Positions 7,115 through 27,378 of a DNA stretch of 64,000 nt are shown here, one piece after another; the stretch's first letter is position 1, and each line of letters starts with the position of its first letter. The stretch is from an uncultured Oscillospiraceae bacterium. GTDB taxonomy: Bacteria; Bacillota; Clostridia; Oscillospirales; Oscillospiraceae. A model generated the notes under the pieces. The model saw nothing but the letters and a program-made list of their open reading frames with translations. It was not told the DNA's origin and did no database searches. The DNA lies in assembly GCA_947627715.1 (NCBI GenBank), contig CANQXK010000002.1:1-64000 (forward strand), read 5' to 3'. The position numbers and the translations under genes were made by a program.

Positions 7115-7296
7115 TATCAAATATTTTTCTCAAGGACATGTGCCTTGAGAAAAATCCCTTATTGTCACGCAAGTGTGCCGCTTGCGGCGCGCGCAGCGTG
7201 GCAGCAGGAAGTTTTTTCTGAATTCCGCAGAATTCAGAAAAAACTTCCGCACGTTCCCCTTTGGCACTGAAAGGCCGCCAGGCCTTTCAGGCCAGC
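7115..7296 (+). repeat. Four-stem-loop intergenic element, copy A (purF-purC gap)
   Basis: Read on the plus strand it has four stem-loops. H4: 13 base pairs (7123-7135 with 7143-7155) and a 7-base loop. H3: outer arms 7163-7170/7196-7203 and inner arms 7177-7181/7184-7188. H2: 19 perfect base pairs (7207-7225 with 7230-7248) with loop CGCA. A conserved linker follows (CGCACGTTCCCC, then TTTGGCA), then H1 (7267-7276 with 7281-7290), closed by TGGC/GCCA around a single bulged A. Copies B and C share this order, spacing and linkers with different arm sequences. It overlaps the last codons and stop of purC. I do not recognise the family. Confidence 0.8.
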
Positions 7297-7997
7297 CCAA
7301 GGCGCTTCATCATCTCGTGATAAGCGTCCTCCACGTTGCCCAGGTCCCGGCGGAAGCGGTCCTTGTCCAGCTTCTCGTTTGTCTTCACATCCCAGAAGCG
7401 GCAGGTGTCGGGGCTTATCTCGTCGGCCAGGACGATCTGGCCGTCCGCGGTCTTGCCGAACTCCAACTTGAAGTCCACAAGGCGCACGCCGCAGACCAGC
7501 ATCTCGGCTTTGAGGAAGTCGTTGACGGCGAAGGCGTACTTCTTGATAAGCTCGATCTCCTCCCAGGTGGCGAGCTTCAGGGCAACGGCGTGGTAGGCGT
7601 TGAGAAGCGGGTCGTGGAGGTCGTCGTTCTTGTAGGAAAACTCGATGGTGGGCGCGTCAAAGACGATGCCCTCCGGCACGCCGTACTTCTTGGAGAAGGA
7701 CCCGGCGGAGACGTTGCGGATGATGACCTCCAGAGGGACGATGGAGACCTTCTTCACGAGAGTGTCCCGGTCAGAAAGCTCCTCCACCAGGTGGGTGGGG
7801 ACCCCGGCGGCCTCCAATTTCTTCATGAGGAAGTTGGTCATGCGGTTGTTGATGGACCCCTTGCCCGTGATGGTGCCCTTCTTGAGGCCGTCAAAGGCGG
7901 TGGCGTCGTCCTTGTAGCTGACGATGACAAGGTTCGGGTCGTCGGTGGCAAAGACCTTCTTGGCCTTGCCCTCATAGAGCTGTTCGCGCTTTTCCAT
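7287..7997 (-). CDS. purC: Phosphoribosylaminoimidazole-succinocarboxamide synthase
   Basis: ATP-dependent ligation of aspartate to CAIR in purine synthesis. Begins MEKREQLYEGKAKKVF, the family start, with AGGAGG eight bases upstream; upstream in-frame codons are not used. Contains the SAICAR synthetase segments GKGSINNRMTNF, VIIRNVSAGSF and LADEISPDTCRFWD. 236 residues, normal length. The final codons and the TGA stop lie inside hairpin H1 of repeat copy A, so the repeat seems to supply the end of the gene. Directly follows purA on the same strand. Confidence 0.97.
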   Translation of the reverse strand: MEKREQLYEGKAKKVFATDDPNLVIVSYKDDATAFDGLKKGTITGKGSINNRMTNFLMKKLEAAGVPTHLVEELSDRDTLVKKVSIVPLEVIIRNVSAGSFSKKYGVPEGIVFDAPTIEFSYKNDDLHDPLLNAYHAVALKLATWEEIELIKKYAFAVNDFLKAEMLVCGVRLVDFKLEFGKTADGQIVLADEISPDTCRFWDVKTNEKLDKDRFRRDLGNVEDAYHEMMKRLGLA

Positions 7998-8040
7998 GTT
8001 GAAACCTCCTGGGTTTTTATTTCTTTTTTCAGGGGATGGA

Positions 8041-9312
8041 TCACATCTCAAAATACTCGTCTCTCCCCGCGCCCACGGAGACGTATTTGATGTGAGTGTT
8101 GGTGGACTCGACGATGAAGTTGACATAATCCTGCGCCTCTTTGGGGAGGTCGTCGAAGGAGCGGCAGCCGGAAATATCCCTGTGCCAGCCGGGGAGGTAC
8201 TCCACCACGGGCTTGGCCGCCTCCAGCTCGTCGCCGGTGGGGAAATAGTCCACGAGCTTCCCGTTCACGTCGTAGTGGGTGACCACGGGGATGCGGTCGA
8301 GATACGAGAGCACGTCCAGCTTCGTCAGGGCGATCTCCGTGGCCCCCTGCACAAGGCAGCCGTAGCGGGAGGCCACCACGTCGAAGCCGCCCACTCTCCG
8401 GGGCCGGCCCGTGGCCGCGCCGTACTCGCCGCCGGCCTCCCGGAGGGCCTCTGCCTCCGCGCCGAACATCTCGCAGGTGAAGGGTCCCGCGCCCACGCAG
8501 CTGGAATACGCCTTCATGATGCCCACGATGTTGTCAAGCCTCTTGGCCGGGATGCCCGCGCCGATGGGGGCGTAGGCGGCGATGGTGGAGGAGCTGGAGG
8601 TATAGGGGTAGATGCCAAAGTCGATGTCCCGCAGCGCCCCCAGCTGGGCCTCGAACATCACGGACTTGCCGGCCTCCACCGCCTCGGTGAGATACCGGGT
8701 GGTGTCCTTCACGTAGGGGAGCAGGGGGAAGCCGTACTTCTCCAGCCACGCGTAGATCTCGTCTGGGTCCACCGGCTCATGGGCATAGCCCCCGGCCACG
8801 GTGAGGTTCTTCCACTCGGTGAGGTCCTTCACATGGGCCTTCAGTGTCTCCGGGTGGAAAAGGTCGCCCATGCGGACGGTCTTTTTCATATACTTGTCGG
8901 CGTACACCGGGGCGATGCCCCGGCGGGTGGAGCCGTAGGCCTTGCCGCCCAGGCGCTCCTCCTCGATGATGTCCATCATCTTGTGGTAGGGCATACAGAC
9001 CGTGGCCCTGTCGGAGATGACCAGGTGCTCCGGGGTGATGGCGACGCCCTTCTCCCGAAGCCTCTCCATCTCGCCGGTGAGGTGCTCCAAGTCGATGACC
9101 ATGCCGGGACCCATGACGTTCACCGTCTCGTCCCGCAGAATGCCGGAGGGCAGCAGGTTCAGGATGAACTTGCCCCGCTCGTTGATCACCGTGTGGCCGG
9201 CGTTGTTGCCGCCCTGATAGCGGATGACGATGTCGTAGCGGGAGCTTAAAAGGTCCACCATGCGGCCCTTTCCCTCGTCTCCCCAGTTGATTCCAACAAC
9301 AGCAGTTAACAT
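8041..9312 (-). CDS. purA: Adenylosuccinate synthetase
   Basis: GTP-dependent conversion of IMP plus aspartate to adenylosuccinate. N-terminal VVGINWGDEGKGR is the phosphate-binding signature and RYQGGNNAGHTV follows. The family's C-terminal GTP-site region (TGRPRRVGGFD) is present. 423 residues. The start ATG sits behind GAGGTGAT. It lies 12 bases from purB and 43 from purC, so it is in the same transcript. Confidence 0.97.
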   Translation of the reverse strand: MLTAVVGINWGDEGKGRMVDLLSSRYDIVIRYQGGNNAGHTVINERGKFILNLLPSGILRDETVNVMGPGMVIDLEHLTGEMERLREKGVAITPEHLVISDRATVCMPYHKMMDIIEEERLGGKAYGSTRRGIAPVYADKYMKKTVRMGDLFHPETLKAHVKDLTEWKNLTVAGGYAHEPVDPDEIYAWLEKYGFPLLPYVKDTTRYLTEAVEAGKSVMFEAQLGALRDIDFGIYPYTSSSSTIAAYAPIGAGIPAKRLDNIVGIMKAYSSCVGAGPFTCEMFGAEAEALREAGGEYGAATGRPRRVGGFDVVASRYGCLVQGATEIALTKLDVLSYLDRIPVVTHYDVNGKLVDYFPTGDELEAAKPVVEYLPGWHRDISGCRSFDDLPKEAQDYVNFIVESTNTHIKYVSVGAGRDEYFEM

Positions 9313-10755: not shown

Positions 10756-10821
10756 AGGTACAACGTTCCTTTCGGGAGGTATCCGCACGGGCGGGTTTGG
10801 GACCCGCCCCTACAGCGTCTC

Positions 10822-11004
10822 AATTTTAATATTTTTTCCGATGGCATGAACATCGGAAAAAATCCCTCTTGCCGCGCAAACGTGCGCCTGCGGGCGTGCG
10901 CTGCAGCGCGGCGGCAGGGGGATTTTCTCTGAATTTCGCAAAATTCAGAGAAATCGCCCGCACGTTCCCCTTGGCATCGAAATGCCGCAGGCATTTCGAG
11001 CCAG
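10822..11004 (+). repeat. Four-stem-loop intergenic element, copy B (purB-glmS gap)
   Basis: Same order as copy A. H4: 13 perfect base pairs with a 7-base loop (10831-10843 with 10851-10863). H3 lies at about 10870-10914. H2 is centred on 10927-10950 with loop CGCA. The linker is CGCACGTTCCCC then TTGGCA, and H1 is 10 perfect base pairs (10977-10986 with 10990-10999) inside TGGC/GCCA with a bulged A. It ends 2 bases before the glmS stop codon. Nearly all arm bases differ from copy A while pairing is kept. Confidence 0.8.
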
Positions 11005-11005
11005 T

Positions 11006-12826
11006 TTATTCTACTGTAACGGACTTTGCCAGATTTTTGGGCTTGTCGATGTCGCAGCCGCGCTCCTTCGCCACGTAGTAGGCGAAGAGCTGCAGCGGGA
11101 CGATCTGAGCGATGGGGTTAAAAAGCGGCTCCGTGCGCGGCACGAAGATCACATCGTCCGCCTTGGAGAGGATCTTTCGGTTCCCCTCCAGCGCCACGGC
11201 CAAAACCTCCGCGCCCCGCGCCTTGACCTCCTCGATGTTGGACATGGTCTTGTCGAACAGCGGCTCGTAGCAGGCCAGGCTCACCACCAGGCTCCCCTGC
11301 TCCACCAGGGCGATGGTCCCGTGCTTCAGCTCCCCGGCGGCGTAGGCCTCGGCGAAGATGTAGCTGATCTCCTTGAGCTTCAGCGCGCCCTCCATGCAGA
11401 CGGCGTAGTCCAGGTTCCTGCCGATGAAGTAGATGTCGTTATATTTGCACAGCCTTTTTGCCAGCTTGTGGATGTTGCGGTTGAGGTCGATGGCCCGCTG
11501 GAGCTTGCCCGGCATGGCGTGAAGGGCGTCCACAAGGGCGTCATACCGCTCCTTCTCCATAAGGCCCAGCCTGTCTGCAAGGTAGATCGCCAGCATATCC
11601 AGGACCGCCACCTGGGTGGTGTAGCCCTTGGTGGTGGCTACGGCGATCTCCGGCCCGGCCCAGGTGTAGATCACGTGGTCGGCCAGCTTTGCGATGGTGG
11701 ACCCCACCACGTTCACGATGGCCAACACCCGCGCCCCGCGGGCCTTGCACTCCCTGAGCGCGGCGATGGTGTCCGCCGTCTCCCCGGACTGGGAGATGAC
11801 CACCAGGAGGGTGTGGCTGTCGATGATGGGGTTGCGGTAGCGAAGCTCGCTGGCAAGCTCCACGCTGACGGGGATGCGGCACAGCTCCTCGATGACGTAC
11901 CTGCCCACCTGCCCGGCGTACCCCGCCGAGCCGCAGGCGGTGACGACGATGCGGCGGATGCCGCGCAGCTCCTGGTCGGAGAGGTCAAAATTTTCAAATT
12001 CGATGCGCCCGTTCTTGATGCGCGGCTCCACGGTGGCCTTGAAGCACGCGGGCTGCTCCATGATCTCCTTGAGCATGAAGTGCTCGTAGCCGCCCTTTTC
12101 GGCGGCCTCCACATCCCAGGCCACCTTGGAGACGGGCTTGTCGATGGCCCGGCCCCGCACGTCGTAGACGGTGATGGCCTCCGGCGTCAGCTCCGCAAAC
12201 TCCCCGTCGTCCAGATAGATGACGTTCTTGGTGTGGGGCACCAGGGCCGCCACGTCGGAGGCGAAATAGTTCTCCCCCACGCCCAGCCCCAAGATCAGCG
12301 GGCTTTGCTCCCGGACGGCGAAGAGCCGGCCCCCGGCGCAGATGATGCCCAGGGAGTAGGACCCCTCCAGCCGCGCCGCCGCCTTCATGACGGCCTTCTT
12401 TTCGTCGCCGTCGTAGTACATCTCCAGGAGATGCGCCACCACCTCGGTGTCGGTGTCGGAGACAAAGGCGTAGCCCTTTTTCGTCAGCTCCTGCCGCAGC
12501 AGGGCGTAATTTTCGATGATGCCGTTGTGAACCACGGCGAAGCGCCCGTCGGAGGAGATGTGCGGGTGGGCGTTCACGTCGTTGGGCGCGCCGTGGGTGG
12601 CCCAGCGGGTGTGGCCCACGCCGATCTGCCCCCGGATGTCCGCCCCGTCGTGGGTCAGCTCGCTGAGGTTCTTCACATAGCCTTTGACCTTGGCCATATT
12701 GATGGCGCTGCCGTCCGCCACGGCGATGCCGGCGGAGTCGTATCCCCTGTATTCCAGCCGCCGCAGTCCGTCAATAAGGACCGCCGCCGCCTCTCTTGTG
12801 CCGGAAAAACCAACTATACCGCACAT
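11006..12826 (-). CDS. glmS: Glutamine-fructose-6-phosphate aminotransferase (isomerizing)
   Basis: Makes glucosamine-6-phosphate for peptidoglycan and other amino sugars. The N-terminal class II glutaminase domain starts MCGIVGFSG with the nucleophile at Cys2. Two SIS sugar-isomerase domains follow (TACGSAGYAG and VVISQSGETADT), and the C-terminus ends DKPKNLAKSVTVE, typical of the family. 606 residues. The start is fixed by the required N-terminal Cys. Only 87 bases separate it from pyrG. That gap holds a palindromic repeat (12851-12911) and is too short for the glmS ribozyme found upstream of many Firmicute glmS genes. Confidence 0.97.
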   Translation of the reverse strand: MCGIVGFSGTREAAAVLIDGLRRLEYRGYDSAGIAVADGSAINMAKVKGYVKNLSELTHDGADIRGQIGVGHTRWATHGAPNDVNAHPHISSDGRFAVVHNGIIENYALLRQELTKKGYAFVSDTDTEVVAHLLEMYYDGDEKKAVMKAAARLEGSYSLGIICAGGRLFAVREQSPLILGLGVGENYFASDVAALVPHTKNVIYLDDGEFAELTPEAITVYDVRGRAIDKPVSKVAWDVEAAEKGGYEHFMLKEIMEQPACFKATVEPRIKNGRIEFENFDLSDQELRGIRRIVVTACGSAGYAGQVGRYVIEELCRIPVSVELASELRYRNPIIDSHTLLVVISQSGETADTIAALRECKARGARVLAIVNVVGSTIAKLADHVIYTWAGPEIAVATTKGYTTQVAVLDMLAIYLADRLGLMEKERYDALVDALHAMPGKLQRAIDLNRNIHKLAKRLCKYNDIYFIGRNLDYAVCMEGALKLKEISYIFAEAYAAGELKHGTIALVEQGSLVVSLACYEPLFDKTMSNIEEVKARGAEVLAVALEGNRKILSKADDVIFVPRTEPLFNPIAQIVPLQLFAYYVAKERGCDIDKPKNLAKSVTVE

Positions 12827-12850
12827 AATGATCCAGGTCCTTTCCTTTTT

Positions 12851-12911
12851 GGCCCCCCTTGCCGGCGCGCGGCCGGGAAGGGAGCTGTCCGGCAAAGCCG
12901 GACTGAGGGTT
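12851..12911 (-). repeat. Palindromic repeat of the GGGAGCTGTC...GACTGAGGG family (glmS-pyrG gap)
   Basis: Pattern on the plus strand: GGCCCCCCTT, G+C stem, AAGGGAGCTGTC, small hairpin CCGGC/GCCGG, GACTGAGGGTT. The same pattern with different hairpin arms recurs at 22739-22785, 23074-23127 and, inverted, at 23188-23236. It ends 2 bases before the pyrG stop. Confidence 0.65.
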
Positions 12912-24818: not shown

Positions 24819-24866
24819 AGACACAGCTCCTTTCGGAAAGTTGAACCGCTTCCCGGCCCGAAAAAC

Positions 24867-25054
24867 CAAATTTAACATTTTTTGCGGTGGCGTGTACGTC
24901 GCAAAAAATCCCTTTTGCCGCGCAAGTGTATGGCCCTCCGGGCCATGCGCGCAGGGCGGCAGCAGGTGGATTTTCTGAATTTTGTGAAATTCAGAAAATC
25001 CGCCGCACGCATCCCTTTGGCATTGAAAGGCCGCGAAGCGGTCTTTCAAGCCAG
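24867..25054 (+). repeat. Four-stem-loop intergenic element, copy C (sdaAB-topoisomerase B gap)
   Basis: H4: 24877-24889 with 24897-24909, 13 pairs and a 7-base loop, two of the pairs G-U only when read on the plus strand. H3: outer TGCCGC/GCGGCA, inner ATGGCCC/GGGCCAT. H2: 24965-24982 with 24987-25004, 18 pairs with one U-G. The linker is CGCACGCATCCC then TTTGGCA. H1: 25023-25034 with 25038-25049, one G-U, closed by TGGC/GCCA with a bulged A. Ends directly at the stop codon of the topoisomerase B gene. Confidence 0.8.
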
Positions 25055-27040
25055 TTATGATATGTCCGCCAAATCCAGGTATTTATACCCGTCTGTGGCG
25101 ATGTGGTCCTTTCTGGCCTGGATGTTGTCTCCCAGCAGCATATCGAACACCCGCGCCGTCTCCTCCGCGTCCGTGGGGAGGACCTTGATGAGGCGGCGGG
25201 TCTGGGGGTTCATGGTGGTCATCCACATCATCTCCGGGTCGTTCTCGCCCAGTCCCTTGGAGCGGGCCACCGTGTACTTCTTCCCCTCCAGCTTCTCCAA
25301 GATGTCCGCCTTCTCCTTCTCGGTGTAGGCAAACCACGTCTTTTCGCCGCAGTTTATTTCGTAGAGAGGCGATTCGGCGATGAACACCCGCCCCTCCTCA
25401 ATGAGGGCCGGCATGAGCCGGTAGATCATGGTCAAAATCAGGGTCCTGATCTGATAGCCGTCGTAGTCCGCGTCGGTGCAGATGATGACCTTGCTCCACC
25501 GAAGGGAATCCAGGTCAAAGGCGGTGAGGTCGCTTTTTATTTTCACCGGCACGCTGACGCCGCAGCCCAGGACCTTCACAAGGTCGGTGATGATGTCGCT
25601 TTTGAAGATGCGGGCGTAGTCGGCCTTGAGGCAGTTCAAAATTTTCCCCCGCACGGGCATGACGCCCTGAAATTCCGCGTCGCGGGAGAGCTTGACGCTG
25701 CCCAGTGCCGAGTCGCCCTCCACGATGTAGAGCTCGGTCCTCGTGGCGTCGTGGGAGCGGCAGGGGACGAATTTCTGGACCCGGTTGGCGATGTCCAGAC
25801 TGCCGGAAAGCTTCTTCTTGATGGTGACGCGGGCCTTTTCCGCCTGCTCGCGGGACCGCTTGTTCACCAGGACCTGGCTTCCGATGCGGTCCGCCTCGGC
25901 CTTGTGCTCGATGAAGTAGATCTCCAGCTGGGAGCGGAAGAACTCCGTCATGGCCGTCTGGATGAATTTATTCGTGATGGCCTTCTTCGTCTGATTTTCG
26001 TAGCTGGTCTGGGTGGAGAAGCAGTTGGTGACCAGGATGAGGCAGTCGGCGATGTCCTGAAAGCCGATCTTCGTCTCGTTTTTCTGATACTTGCCCGTCT
26101 GCCGCAGGTATGCATCCACGGCGGAGACAAAGGCGCTTTTCGCCGCCTTGTCCGGCGCGCCGCCGTGCTCCAGCCAACTGGAATTGTGGTAGTACTCGAT
26201 GACGTTGACGCTGTTGGAGAAGCAGAAGGCGGCGGAGAGCTTCACCTTATACTCCGGCTTGTCCTCCCGGTCGCGGCCGCGCCTCTCCCCTTCGATAAAG
26301 TAAGGCGCGGTCAGCGGGTTCTCCCCGGCAAGCTCGGTGACGTAGTCCAGGATGCCGTTTTCGTAAAAATATTCCGTCTCCTCGAATTTTCCGCCCGTCT
26401 GGAAGCGGAACACAAAGCGGACGCCGGGGTTCACCACGGACTGCTTTTTGAGGACGTCCTCGAAATACTCCCGGGGGATGTTGGTGTCGGTGAACACCTC
26501 CCGGTCGGGCCGCCACCTCATGGCCGAGCCCGTGCGCCGCCCGGCGAAAGGCTCGCTCTTCAGGCCCCCCACGTTCTCCCCCTTCTCAAAGTGGAGGGCG
26601 TATTTCTTCCCGTCCCGCCAGACGGTGACGTCCATATACTCGGAGCTGTACTGGGTGGCGCAGGTGCCCAGGCCGTTGAGGCCAAGGGAGTACTCATAGT
26701 CCCCGCCGTTGTCGTTTTTATATTTTCCGCCGGCGTAAAGCTCGCAGAAAACCAGCTCCCAGTTATATCGCTCCTCCTTGCTGTTCCAGTCCACCGGGCA
26801 CCCGCGCCCGAAGTCCTCCACCTCGATGGAGCCGTCGGCGTAGCGCGTGAGGATGATCCTGTCGCCGTGGCCCTCCCTGGCCTCGTCGATGGAGTTGGAC
26901 AGGATCTCAAACACCGAGTGTTCGCAGCCCTCCAGCCCGTCGGACCCGAAGATCACGCCGGGGCGCTTGCGCACACGGTCCGCGCCTTTTAACTGGCTGA
27001 TGCTGTCGTTTCCGTATTCCGCTTTCGTGCCTTTTTTCAT
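25055..27040 (-). CDS. Type II DNA topoisomerase subunit B (ParE/GyrB-like)
   Basis: ATPase subunit that pairs with the A subunit at 17160-19418. GHKL ATPase domain: EILSNSIDEAREGHGD with the Mg-binding Asn, DFGRGCPVD, and the lid SLGLNGLGTCATQ. The Toprim domain has EGDSA and the Asp cluster CTDADYDGYQIRTL. 661 residues. I placed the start at MKKGTKAEYG (27040) behind AGGTGAT; MTGDEMKK (27055) is an alternative. Transcribed from the promoter at 27093-27121. Separation from the A subunit and divergent wording of the lid suggest a clade-specific topoisomerase IV-type pair. Confidence 0.87.
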   Translation of the reverse strand: MKKGTKAEYGNDSISQLKGADRVRKRPGVIFGSDGLEGCEHSVFEILSNSIDEAREGHGDRIILTRYADGSIEVEDFGRGCPVDWNSKEERYNWELVFCELYAGGKYKNDNGGDYEYSLGLNGLGTCATQYSSEYMDVTVWRDGKKYALHFEKGENVGGLKSEPFAGRRTGSAMRWRPDREVFTDTNIPREYFEDVLKKQSVVNPGVRFVFRFQTGGKFEETEYFYENGILDYVTELAGENPLTAPYFIEGERRGRDREDKPEYKVKLSAAFCFSNSVNVIEYYHNSSWLEHGGAPDKAAKSAFVSAVDAYLRQTGKYQKNETKIGFQDIADCLILVTNCFSTQTSYENQTKKAITNKFIQTAMTEFFRSQLEIYFIEHKAEADRIGSQVLVNKRSREQAEKARVTIKKKLSGSLDIANRVQKFVPCRSHDATRTELYIVEGDSALGSVKLSRDAEFQGVMPVRGKILNCLKADYARIFKSDIITDLVKVLGCGVSVPVKIKSDLTAFDLDSLRWSKVIICTDADYDGYQIRTLILTMIYRLMPALIEEGRVFIAESPLYEINCGEKTWFAYTEKEKADILEKLEGKKYTVARSKGLGENDPEMMWMTTMNPQTRRLIKVLPTDAEETARVFDMLLGDNIQARKDHIATDGYKYLDLADIS

Positions 27041-27092
27041 TTCATCACCTGTCATGACAAGATATTGTGTCTTTTTGTCTGTCGAACATCTT

Positions 27093-27121
27093 ATTTTACC
27101 ATACATTTTGTGCCCTGGCAA
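27093..27121 (-). promoter_or_regulatory. SigA-type promoter of the topoisomerase B gene
   Basis: Minus strand: TTGCCA, 17 bases, TAAAAT. About 50 bases upstream of the chosen start. Confidence 0.75.
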
Positions 27122-27154
27122 GGCTAAATCCGTTTTTTCCTCAAAATTGCGTCC

Positions 27155-27378
27155 CGCGCATATTCTACCACGTTTAGAGGCCGCTTTGGCGCACATAATA
27201 GACTCAGACGCGAGACGGCTTTCCATCAGACCGGTGTTCAAAGGACAAGAGAGAAAACGTCCTGCGGACGAATGGTCAAAAGCCGGAAGGGAGAAGGCGG
27301 CCTTGTTCTGGTGACAAGGTGCATCTCCTGAAGCGTCTTTAAAGAAAGGGAGGGGCAAAAAAGCCCCTCCCTTTTCAG
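27155..27378 (+). ncRNA. Candidate structured RNA (6S-like rod) ending in a terminator
   Basis: The gap 27122-27345 has no gene but folds as a rod. Outer stem GAGGCCGC (27177-27184) with GCGGCCTT (27297-27304), extended by TACCA/TGGTG. Asymmetric internal bubble of 31 and 11 bases. Second stem CGGCTTT (27216-27222) with AAAGCCG (27279-27285), then GACC/GGTC, then AGGAC/GTCCT. The outer stems contain pairs that are G-U on the plus strand. A 12-base-pair terminator (27345-27374) follows with no protein gene upstream on this strand. The shape resembles 6S RNA, but I see no strong promoter, so this is tentative. Confidence 0.3.
27345..27375 (+). terminator. Intrinsic terminator with no obvious upstream plus-strand gene
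   Basis: AAAGGGAGGGGC, loop of six A, GCCCCTCCCTTT, then T. Symmetric enough to work in both directions. Supports the candidate RNA just upstream. Confidence 0.75.

Follow-up and report, generated by a model that had tools for sequence, protein, structure and literature searches.

The closest described systems to the element reported here include mobile sequences that use stem-loops as targets. IS1272 and TnSha1, staphylococcal members of the IS1182 family, target stem-loops, many of them terminators, without specificity for primary sequence, and they delete the target stem-loop partly or wholly, leaving no duplication (PMC5678879, PMC4923244). Duplication of the stem-loop has only been proposed, as 'pathway b' (PMC5678879). 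Our element resembles these in its stem-loop targets and in the transposase of its relatives, which is of the IS1182 family; it differs in that the whole stem-loop is doubled, and in that the element has no transposase and contains a structured core. A second point of comparison is provided by bacterial MITEs whose transcripts form stem-loops, for instance QMITE2 of Coxiella, or BOX and RUP of pneumococci (reviewed in PMC10969869). Like these, the element is a small, non-autonomous, intergenic repeat with the potential to form stable stem-loops, but it is distinguished by order-wide covariation in its core, by strand-specific wobbles and by a stem-loop target. REP sequences moved by RAYT transposases are also dispersed, extragenic hairpins found 3' of genes; the element differs from them in its ends, which carry no GTAG foot, and in a distribution that does not match the presence of Y1 transposases.

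The window, by which we mean the whole 64,000-nucleotide stretch that we analysed, comes from an uncultured Oscillospiraceae bacterium and contains three copies of the element, A, B and C, each of which forms four hairpins (H1 to H4) when its plus strand is folded (Table 1). From H1 to H4, the element measures ~170-185 nt, too short to encode a transposase; it is dispersed, and variable in copy number. Compared with shuffled sequence, copy C folds well on both strands and better on the plus strand (z = -8.7, versus -6.1 on the minus). All three copies are old and without intact duplications, and copy B retains part of its left end, next to a GGGCGGG hairpin. We consider it probable that the element is a non-autonomous MITE with IS1182-type mobility, built around an H1-H2 core that occurs across the order and whose plus strand is selected for folding, a small RNA being the likeliest form.

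Table 1. Positions of the element copies and their neighbouring genes in the window
Feature	Positions	Strand	Evidence or remarks
Copy A	7122..7295	+	H1 7123-7155, H2 7163-7203, H3 7204-7250, H4 7261-7295
purC	7287..8126	-	NCBIfam TIGR00081, 251.5 bits; TGA 7289-7287, inside H4 stem of copy A
Copy B	10830..11004	+	H1 10831-10863, H2 10870-10913, H3 10914-10961, H4 10971-11004
glmS	11006..12895	-	TIGR01135, 778.9 bits; ends at H4 end of copy B
Copy C, left terminal region	24860..24875	+	Degraded; CAGTTTGTCAAAAAACTCAAATTCAATA at this place in intact copies
Copy C, four-hairpin element	24876..25054	+	Fold z -8.7; matches own-genome copies; covariance-model member
Copy C, H1	24877..24909	+	Two G-U pairs; minimum-energy fold
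Copy C, H2	24916..24961	+	Core with U-G pairs; fold; tandem U.G/G.U conserved in other genera
Copy C, H3	24962..25006	+	Minimum-energy fold
Copy C, H4	25017..25054	+	CAG end adjoins stop codon of minus-strand gene
Type IIA topoisomerase B-subunit gene, GyrB/ParE-like	25055..27358	-	Ends at H4 end of copy C; top matches are GyrB/ParE models, with scores under their cut-offs

The preliminary description held that every irregular pair in the main stems is G-U when read on the plus strand. The direction of this claim is correct, 'every' is too strong, and some of the pairs it listed are absent. In minimum-energy folds, the plus strands of copies A, B and C contain 4, 4 and 7 G-U pairs (15 in total), and the minus strands 0, 2 and 1 (3 in total), none of them at the positions of plus-strand G-U pairs. 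In copy C, both G-U pairs reported for H4 are present (25030-25042 and 25017-25054); H2 and H1, credited with one each, have two each (24929-24947 and 24927-24949; 24888-24898 and 24887-24899), and H3 has one (24967-25002). The pair assigned to the outer stem of H3 in copy A is not there, this hairpin being free of irregular pairs, and H3 of copy B has a G-G mismatch and a bulge instead of the G-U reported. The G-U pairs of these two copies occur in H2 (7176-7189, 7174-7191 and 7165-7201 in copy A; 10884-10897, 10883-10898 and 10870-10913 in copy B), and at the base of H4.

Three copies are few, and the bias was examined on a larger scale. The window's own genome, a 2.64-Mb draft, contains over 30 matches, whether full or partial, and many further copies came from a pattern scan of public genomes, in which the matches listed were all named Oscillospiraceae and came from a single isolate series labelled Lapin. 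For 123 full copies from the window's own genus, stems were called with a strand-blind hairpin finder that penalizes G-U and A-C equally, and pairs were tallied without the columns of the H2 internal loop, a source of spurious A-C pairs. Read on the plus strand, the irregular pairs comprise 456 G-U, 52 A-C and 48 others. Copy by copy, 121 of the 123 lean to G-U and one to A-C. Most of these pairs are inherited. Column pair 13-25 of H1 is G.U in 76 of 117 copies, and among 111 copies, H2 carries U.G in 84 at one position and in 97 at another, and G.U in 48 at a third. Large subfamilies have thereby fixed a single G.U in H1 together with three H2 wobbles. Since most of the counts represent inherited, fixed pairs, private mutations and other genera were examined as well.

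Private changes away from Watson-Crick pairs produced G-U in 61 cases and A-C in 34 (p = 0.007), and a further 78 private changes are two-sided, exchanging one Watson-Crick pair for another. The bias of these fresh mutations is confined to H1 and H2, where the ratio of G-U to A-C is 38:11 (p = 0.0001); in H3 and H4 it is 23:23, and the bias is absent. This division was overlooked in the preliminary description: H3 and H4 behave as strand-neutral palindromes. Transitions at unpaired sites, the internal control, occur in the ratio 48:60, slightly opposite to the G-U bias. Mutation bias thus does not explain the G-U excess, and a mutational origin was rejected.

To follow the element beyond the genus, we used a covariance model made from 16 own-genome copies, copy C included. 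It matches 125 of 250 genomes, which represent 68 of the family's 106 genera, as well as some genomes in other families of the order; in a sample of the order, which serves as the negative control, 257 of 295 genomes have no match. What is common to other genera is H1-H2. The remaining hairpins differ, and at these loci an extra hairpin, 'P0', with GCCTCGCAGAGTT, precedes H1. In alignment A2, which is fitted to the covariance model and leans to the model's structure, core pairs at 46 loci from ~40 other genera include 138 G-U and 1 A-C; H1 pairs, which are recognizable in the sequences before any alignment, include 33 G-U and 0 A-C at five positions. The equality of G-U and A-C that would have counted against the strand claim was sought in both sets of copies, and is absent from both. 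A tandem 5'-UG/3'-GU is near-invariant in the other genera (U.G in 42 of 42, G.U in 37 of 42), and tandem G.A occurs in ~10 of their loci. P0 is unbiased, with G-U to A-C at 4:8. Compensatory, two-sided changes are present at 25 of the 30 core pairs, a number that none of 500 shuffles matched, and the covariation score of the core is 0.439, compared with 0.161 for shuffles and 0.05-0.11 for slid structures. These changes support the plus-strand structure of the core, and in 41 of the 46 loci the plus-strand core folds better than the minus.

Because of the G-U bias, the covariation, the concentration of biased private mutations in the core and the opposite spectrum at unpaired sites, we conclude that the core takes its folded form on the plus strand. 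The central claim of the preliminary description, that the plus strand is structurally constrained and that the minus strand, the sense strand of the gene next to H4, lacks this constraint, is borne out by the 456:52 and 138:1 tallies. And since the bias is carried by an inherited core, the G-U excess is not a property of each neighbouring mRNA. On the sequence evidence, the folded form of the core is most likely RNA. It could instead be single-stranded DNA, an intermediate in transposition or replication, for example, with DNA hairpins the source of the tolerance. The element is mobile, and every hairpin is strong. In DNA, too, G.T disrupts less than A.C, and folding of a single DNA strand would likewise favour G.T over A.C and leave a similar trace. 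We regard this as unlikely. The associated transposases, described below, are of the DDE kind, and DDE transposases work on ends that are double-stranded, not on a single folded strand. The bias, moreover, resides in the inner core and is missing from the private changes of the terminal H3-H4 region and from P0, and the core contains tandem 5'-UG/3'-GU and tandem G.A, which are usual motifs of RNA.

The mobility of the element was also overlooked in the preliminary description: it is an IS1182-type element placed beside terminators. Intact copies start with CAGTTTGTCAAAAAACTCAAATTCAATA and end with GACAGGCTG, and have a 9-bp inverted repeat, CAGYYTGTC. Insertion sequences of ~1.5 kb in the genus are bounded by the element's ends (CAGTTTGTCAAAAAAC...GACAGGCTG in the element, CAGTTTGTCAAAAAAACAC...TTTTTTGACAAACTG in the insertion sequences), with CAGTTTGTCAAAAAAC / GACARRCTG common to the element and to five insertion-sequence copies (L218, L220, L221, L222 and L230). 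The transposase of the last of these belongs to the IS1182 family (NF033551, 385 bits against a cut-off of 270; PF13751, PF05598 and PF01609). Species of one genus differ in copy number from 0 to 105 pattern matches, and at the GyrB/ParE-like (parE) locus of copy C the element is missing in most relatives. Varying copy number and an empty flank in most relatives indicate that the element is mobile, and fit a MITE. Given the shared ends, IS1182-family transposases probably move it in trans. The window's own draft genome yielded no intact IS1182 element bounded by such ends, the only candidate being an unrelated DUF772 fragment (L225); metagenome bins often lose repeats. We also searched for an autonomous version of the element, longer and with a gene separating H1 from H4, and found none. 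The IS1182-like elements as a group have ends of two types, CAGTCTGTCAAAAAACC and CAGTCTGTCGACAAACC (L218-L223, L230, L214 and L215).

Element and insertion sequence are alike in their choice of target and in what happens to it. A whole stem-loop of 17-38 bp is duplicated around the element in 27 of the 123 genus copies, and in none when partners are shuffled; duplication is not recognizable in the other 96. Full insertion-sequence copies sit, in five cases out of five, between two copies of a stem-loop of 21-31 bp, and at four loci, from three other genera, the element is likewise flanked by a duplicated stem-loop. It would appear, then, that the element lands at stem-loops, chiefly transcription terminators, and often doubles the whole stem-loop. 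Landing at terminators would place it just 3' of genes, usually in antisense orientation, and targeting of this kind accounts for the gathering of such repeats at gene ends. Neighbour-gene orientations, called with a hexamer model in the genus and in other genera, agree with this arrangement. Only 4 of 114 copies lie between divergent genes. On its H4 side, the element has an antisense gene in 99 of 120 cases within the genus and in 41 of 45 outside it. Between co-directional genes, 56 copies are antisense and 16 are in the opposite orientation (p = 2e-6). Known IS1182 insertion occurs in both orientations, and an antisense preference is not expected from it (PMC4923244). A stable core carried in the sense orientation by an mRNA may be deleterious, or convergent transcription may be important.

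Several smaller observations concern the history of individual copies. Between two genomes whose flanks are ~97% alike (G015 and G025), some copies are nearly unchanged. At one site (G015:C5 37700-38040 and G025:C15 35280-35740), the two species carry the element in opposite orientations, and a remnant of an older copy's H4 adjoins the newer copy. In some orthologous or duplicated copies the loop is inverted with the arms unchanged (GGGC-TCC-GCCC versus GGGC-GGA-GCCC), as at G015:C11 51095-51272 versus G025:C9 22847-23023, and in the flanks of L117 and L050. Short forms consist of H1 and H4 only (L015, L020, L188 and L193), H2-H3 apparently having been lost between CCTTTTG-like repeats. A second repeat of ~100-130 nt, GGGGTCCCC..GATTGCGTGGGGA..GGTTAAGCGGC..GACGACGA, is nested, in both orientations, in H2 of several copies (L008, L013 and L014; L166; G015:C5 at ~27.3 kb; and G025:C15 at ~35.5 kb).

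The placement of the element raises a further alternative: that it belongs to the upstream gene's 3' untranslated region, acting in the mRNA as a stabilizer or terminator, and that its bias arose by chance or mutation. H4 adjoins the stop codons of minus-strand genes, and copies lie 3' of genes throughout the order. Nevertheless, this is improbable, for on the mRNA strand the wobbles turn into A.C mismatches, and the mutation spectrum at unpaired sites runs against the bias. Nor, in copies B and C, was a terminator-like site (a hairpin and then a T run) found on either strand, and where the terminator hairpin has been duplicated, one copy of it separates the gene from the element. Least credible is an identity as a REP-type sequence mobilized by a RAYT (TnpA-REP, Y1) transposase: ~280-aa RAYT-like Y1 genes are present in both of the most copy-rich genomes (G018 and G032), but the 280-aa genes are not flanked by any element copy, other genomes (G014, G015, G016, G021 and G028) carry copies without a Y1 match, the ends are CAG..TGTC with terminal repeats that match IS1182 elements, and a separate GTAG-hairpin, REP-like family occurs in those same genomes, so that a Y1/RAYT origin was rejected on its poor fit with Y1 presence and on the ends.

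Sequences of the REP and IS200 kinds are nonetheless found in these genomes. A REP-like hairpin with a GTAG foot, GTAGGGGCGGGTTCCAAACCCGCCC, recurs in the same intergenic regions as the element (positions 10785-10822 of the window, and the flanks of L221), and one IS1182 copy, L221 itself, sits within this hairpin. RAYT-like genes of ~280 aa occur in G018, G029, G031 and G032, and the window's own genome has degenerate transposase genes of the IS200 type (G000:C1:186825-187181, L140; G000:C28:20705-21062, L141).

Returning to the reading we favour, a MITE with a structured core, we envisage that an H1-H2 core common across the order sits inside IS1182-type ends, its plus strand under selection to fold, and that H3, H4 and the outer hairpins, palindromes on which strand has less bearing, are linked to the ends and to insertion. 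The MITE itself is of a known kind; the structured core inside it is undescribed. Rfam has no match to the element at the gathering threshold, and only chance-level, microRNA-like matches at a loose threshold. The literature searched, of incomplete coverage, contains no description of the four-hairpin element, and no sigma-70-like promoter was found in the regions of copies B and C that were scanned. We suggest, more tentatively, that the core could represent an undescribed class of small functional RNA, spread across the order on IS1182-type ends as a bacterial counterpart of SINEs, with its copies acting as terminator-insulated antisense RNA units. Insertion at a terminator would duplicate it, and so each copy would become a self-contained antisense RNA unit with a terminator on either side.

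For the analysis of other repeats, the approach used here offers a practical test of strand, in which G-U is counted against A-C, private mutations are considered separately, and unpaired sites serve as the control. If our interpretation is right, a mobile family in many gut Clostridia carries a conserved, structured core in which the wobbles alone reveal the functional strand, ahead of expression data, and this core would be a new RNA candidate absent from Rfam. The family would also provide a natural instance of stem-loop duplication by IS1182-type transposition, of which the published IS1272 and TnSha1 cases show removal only, and an explanation for why such repeats cluster at the ends of genes.
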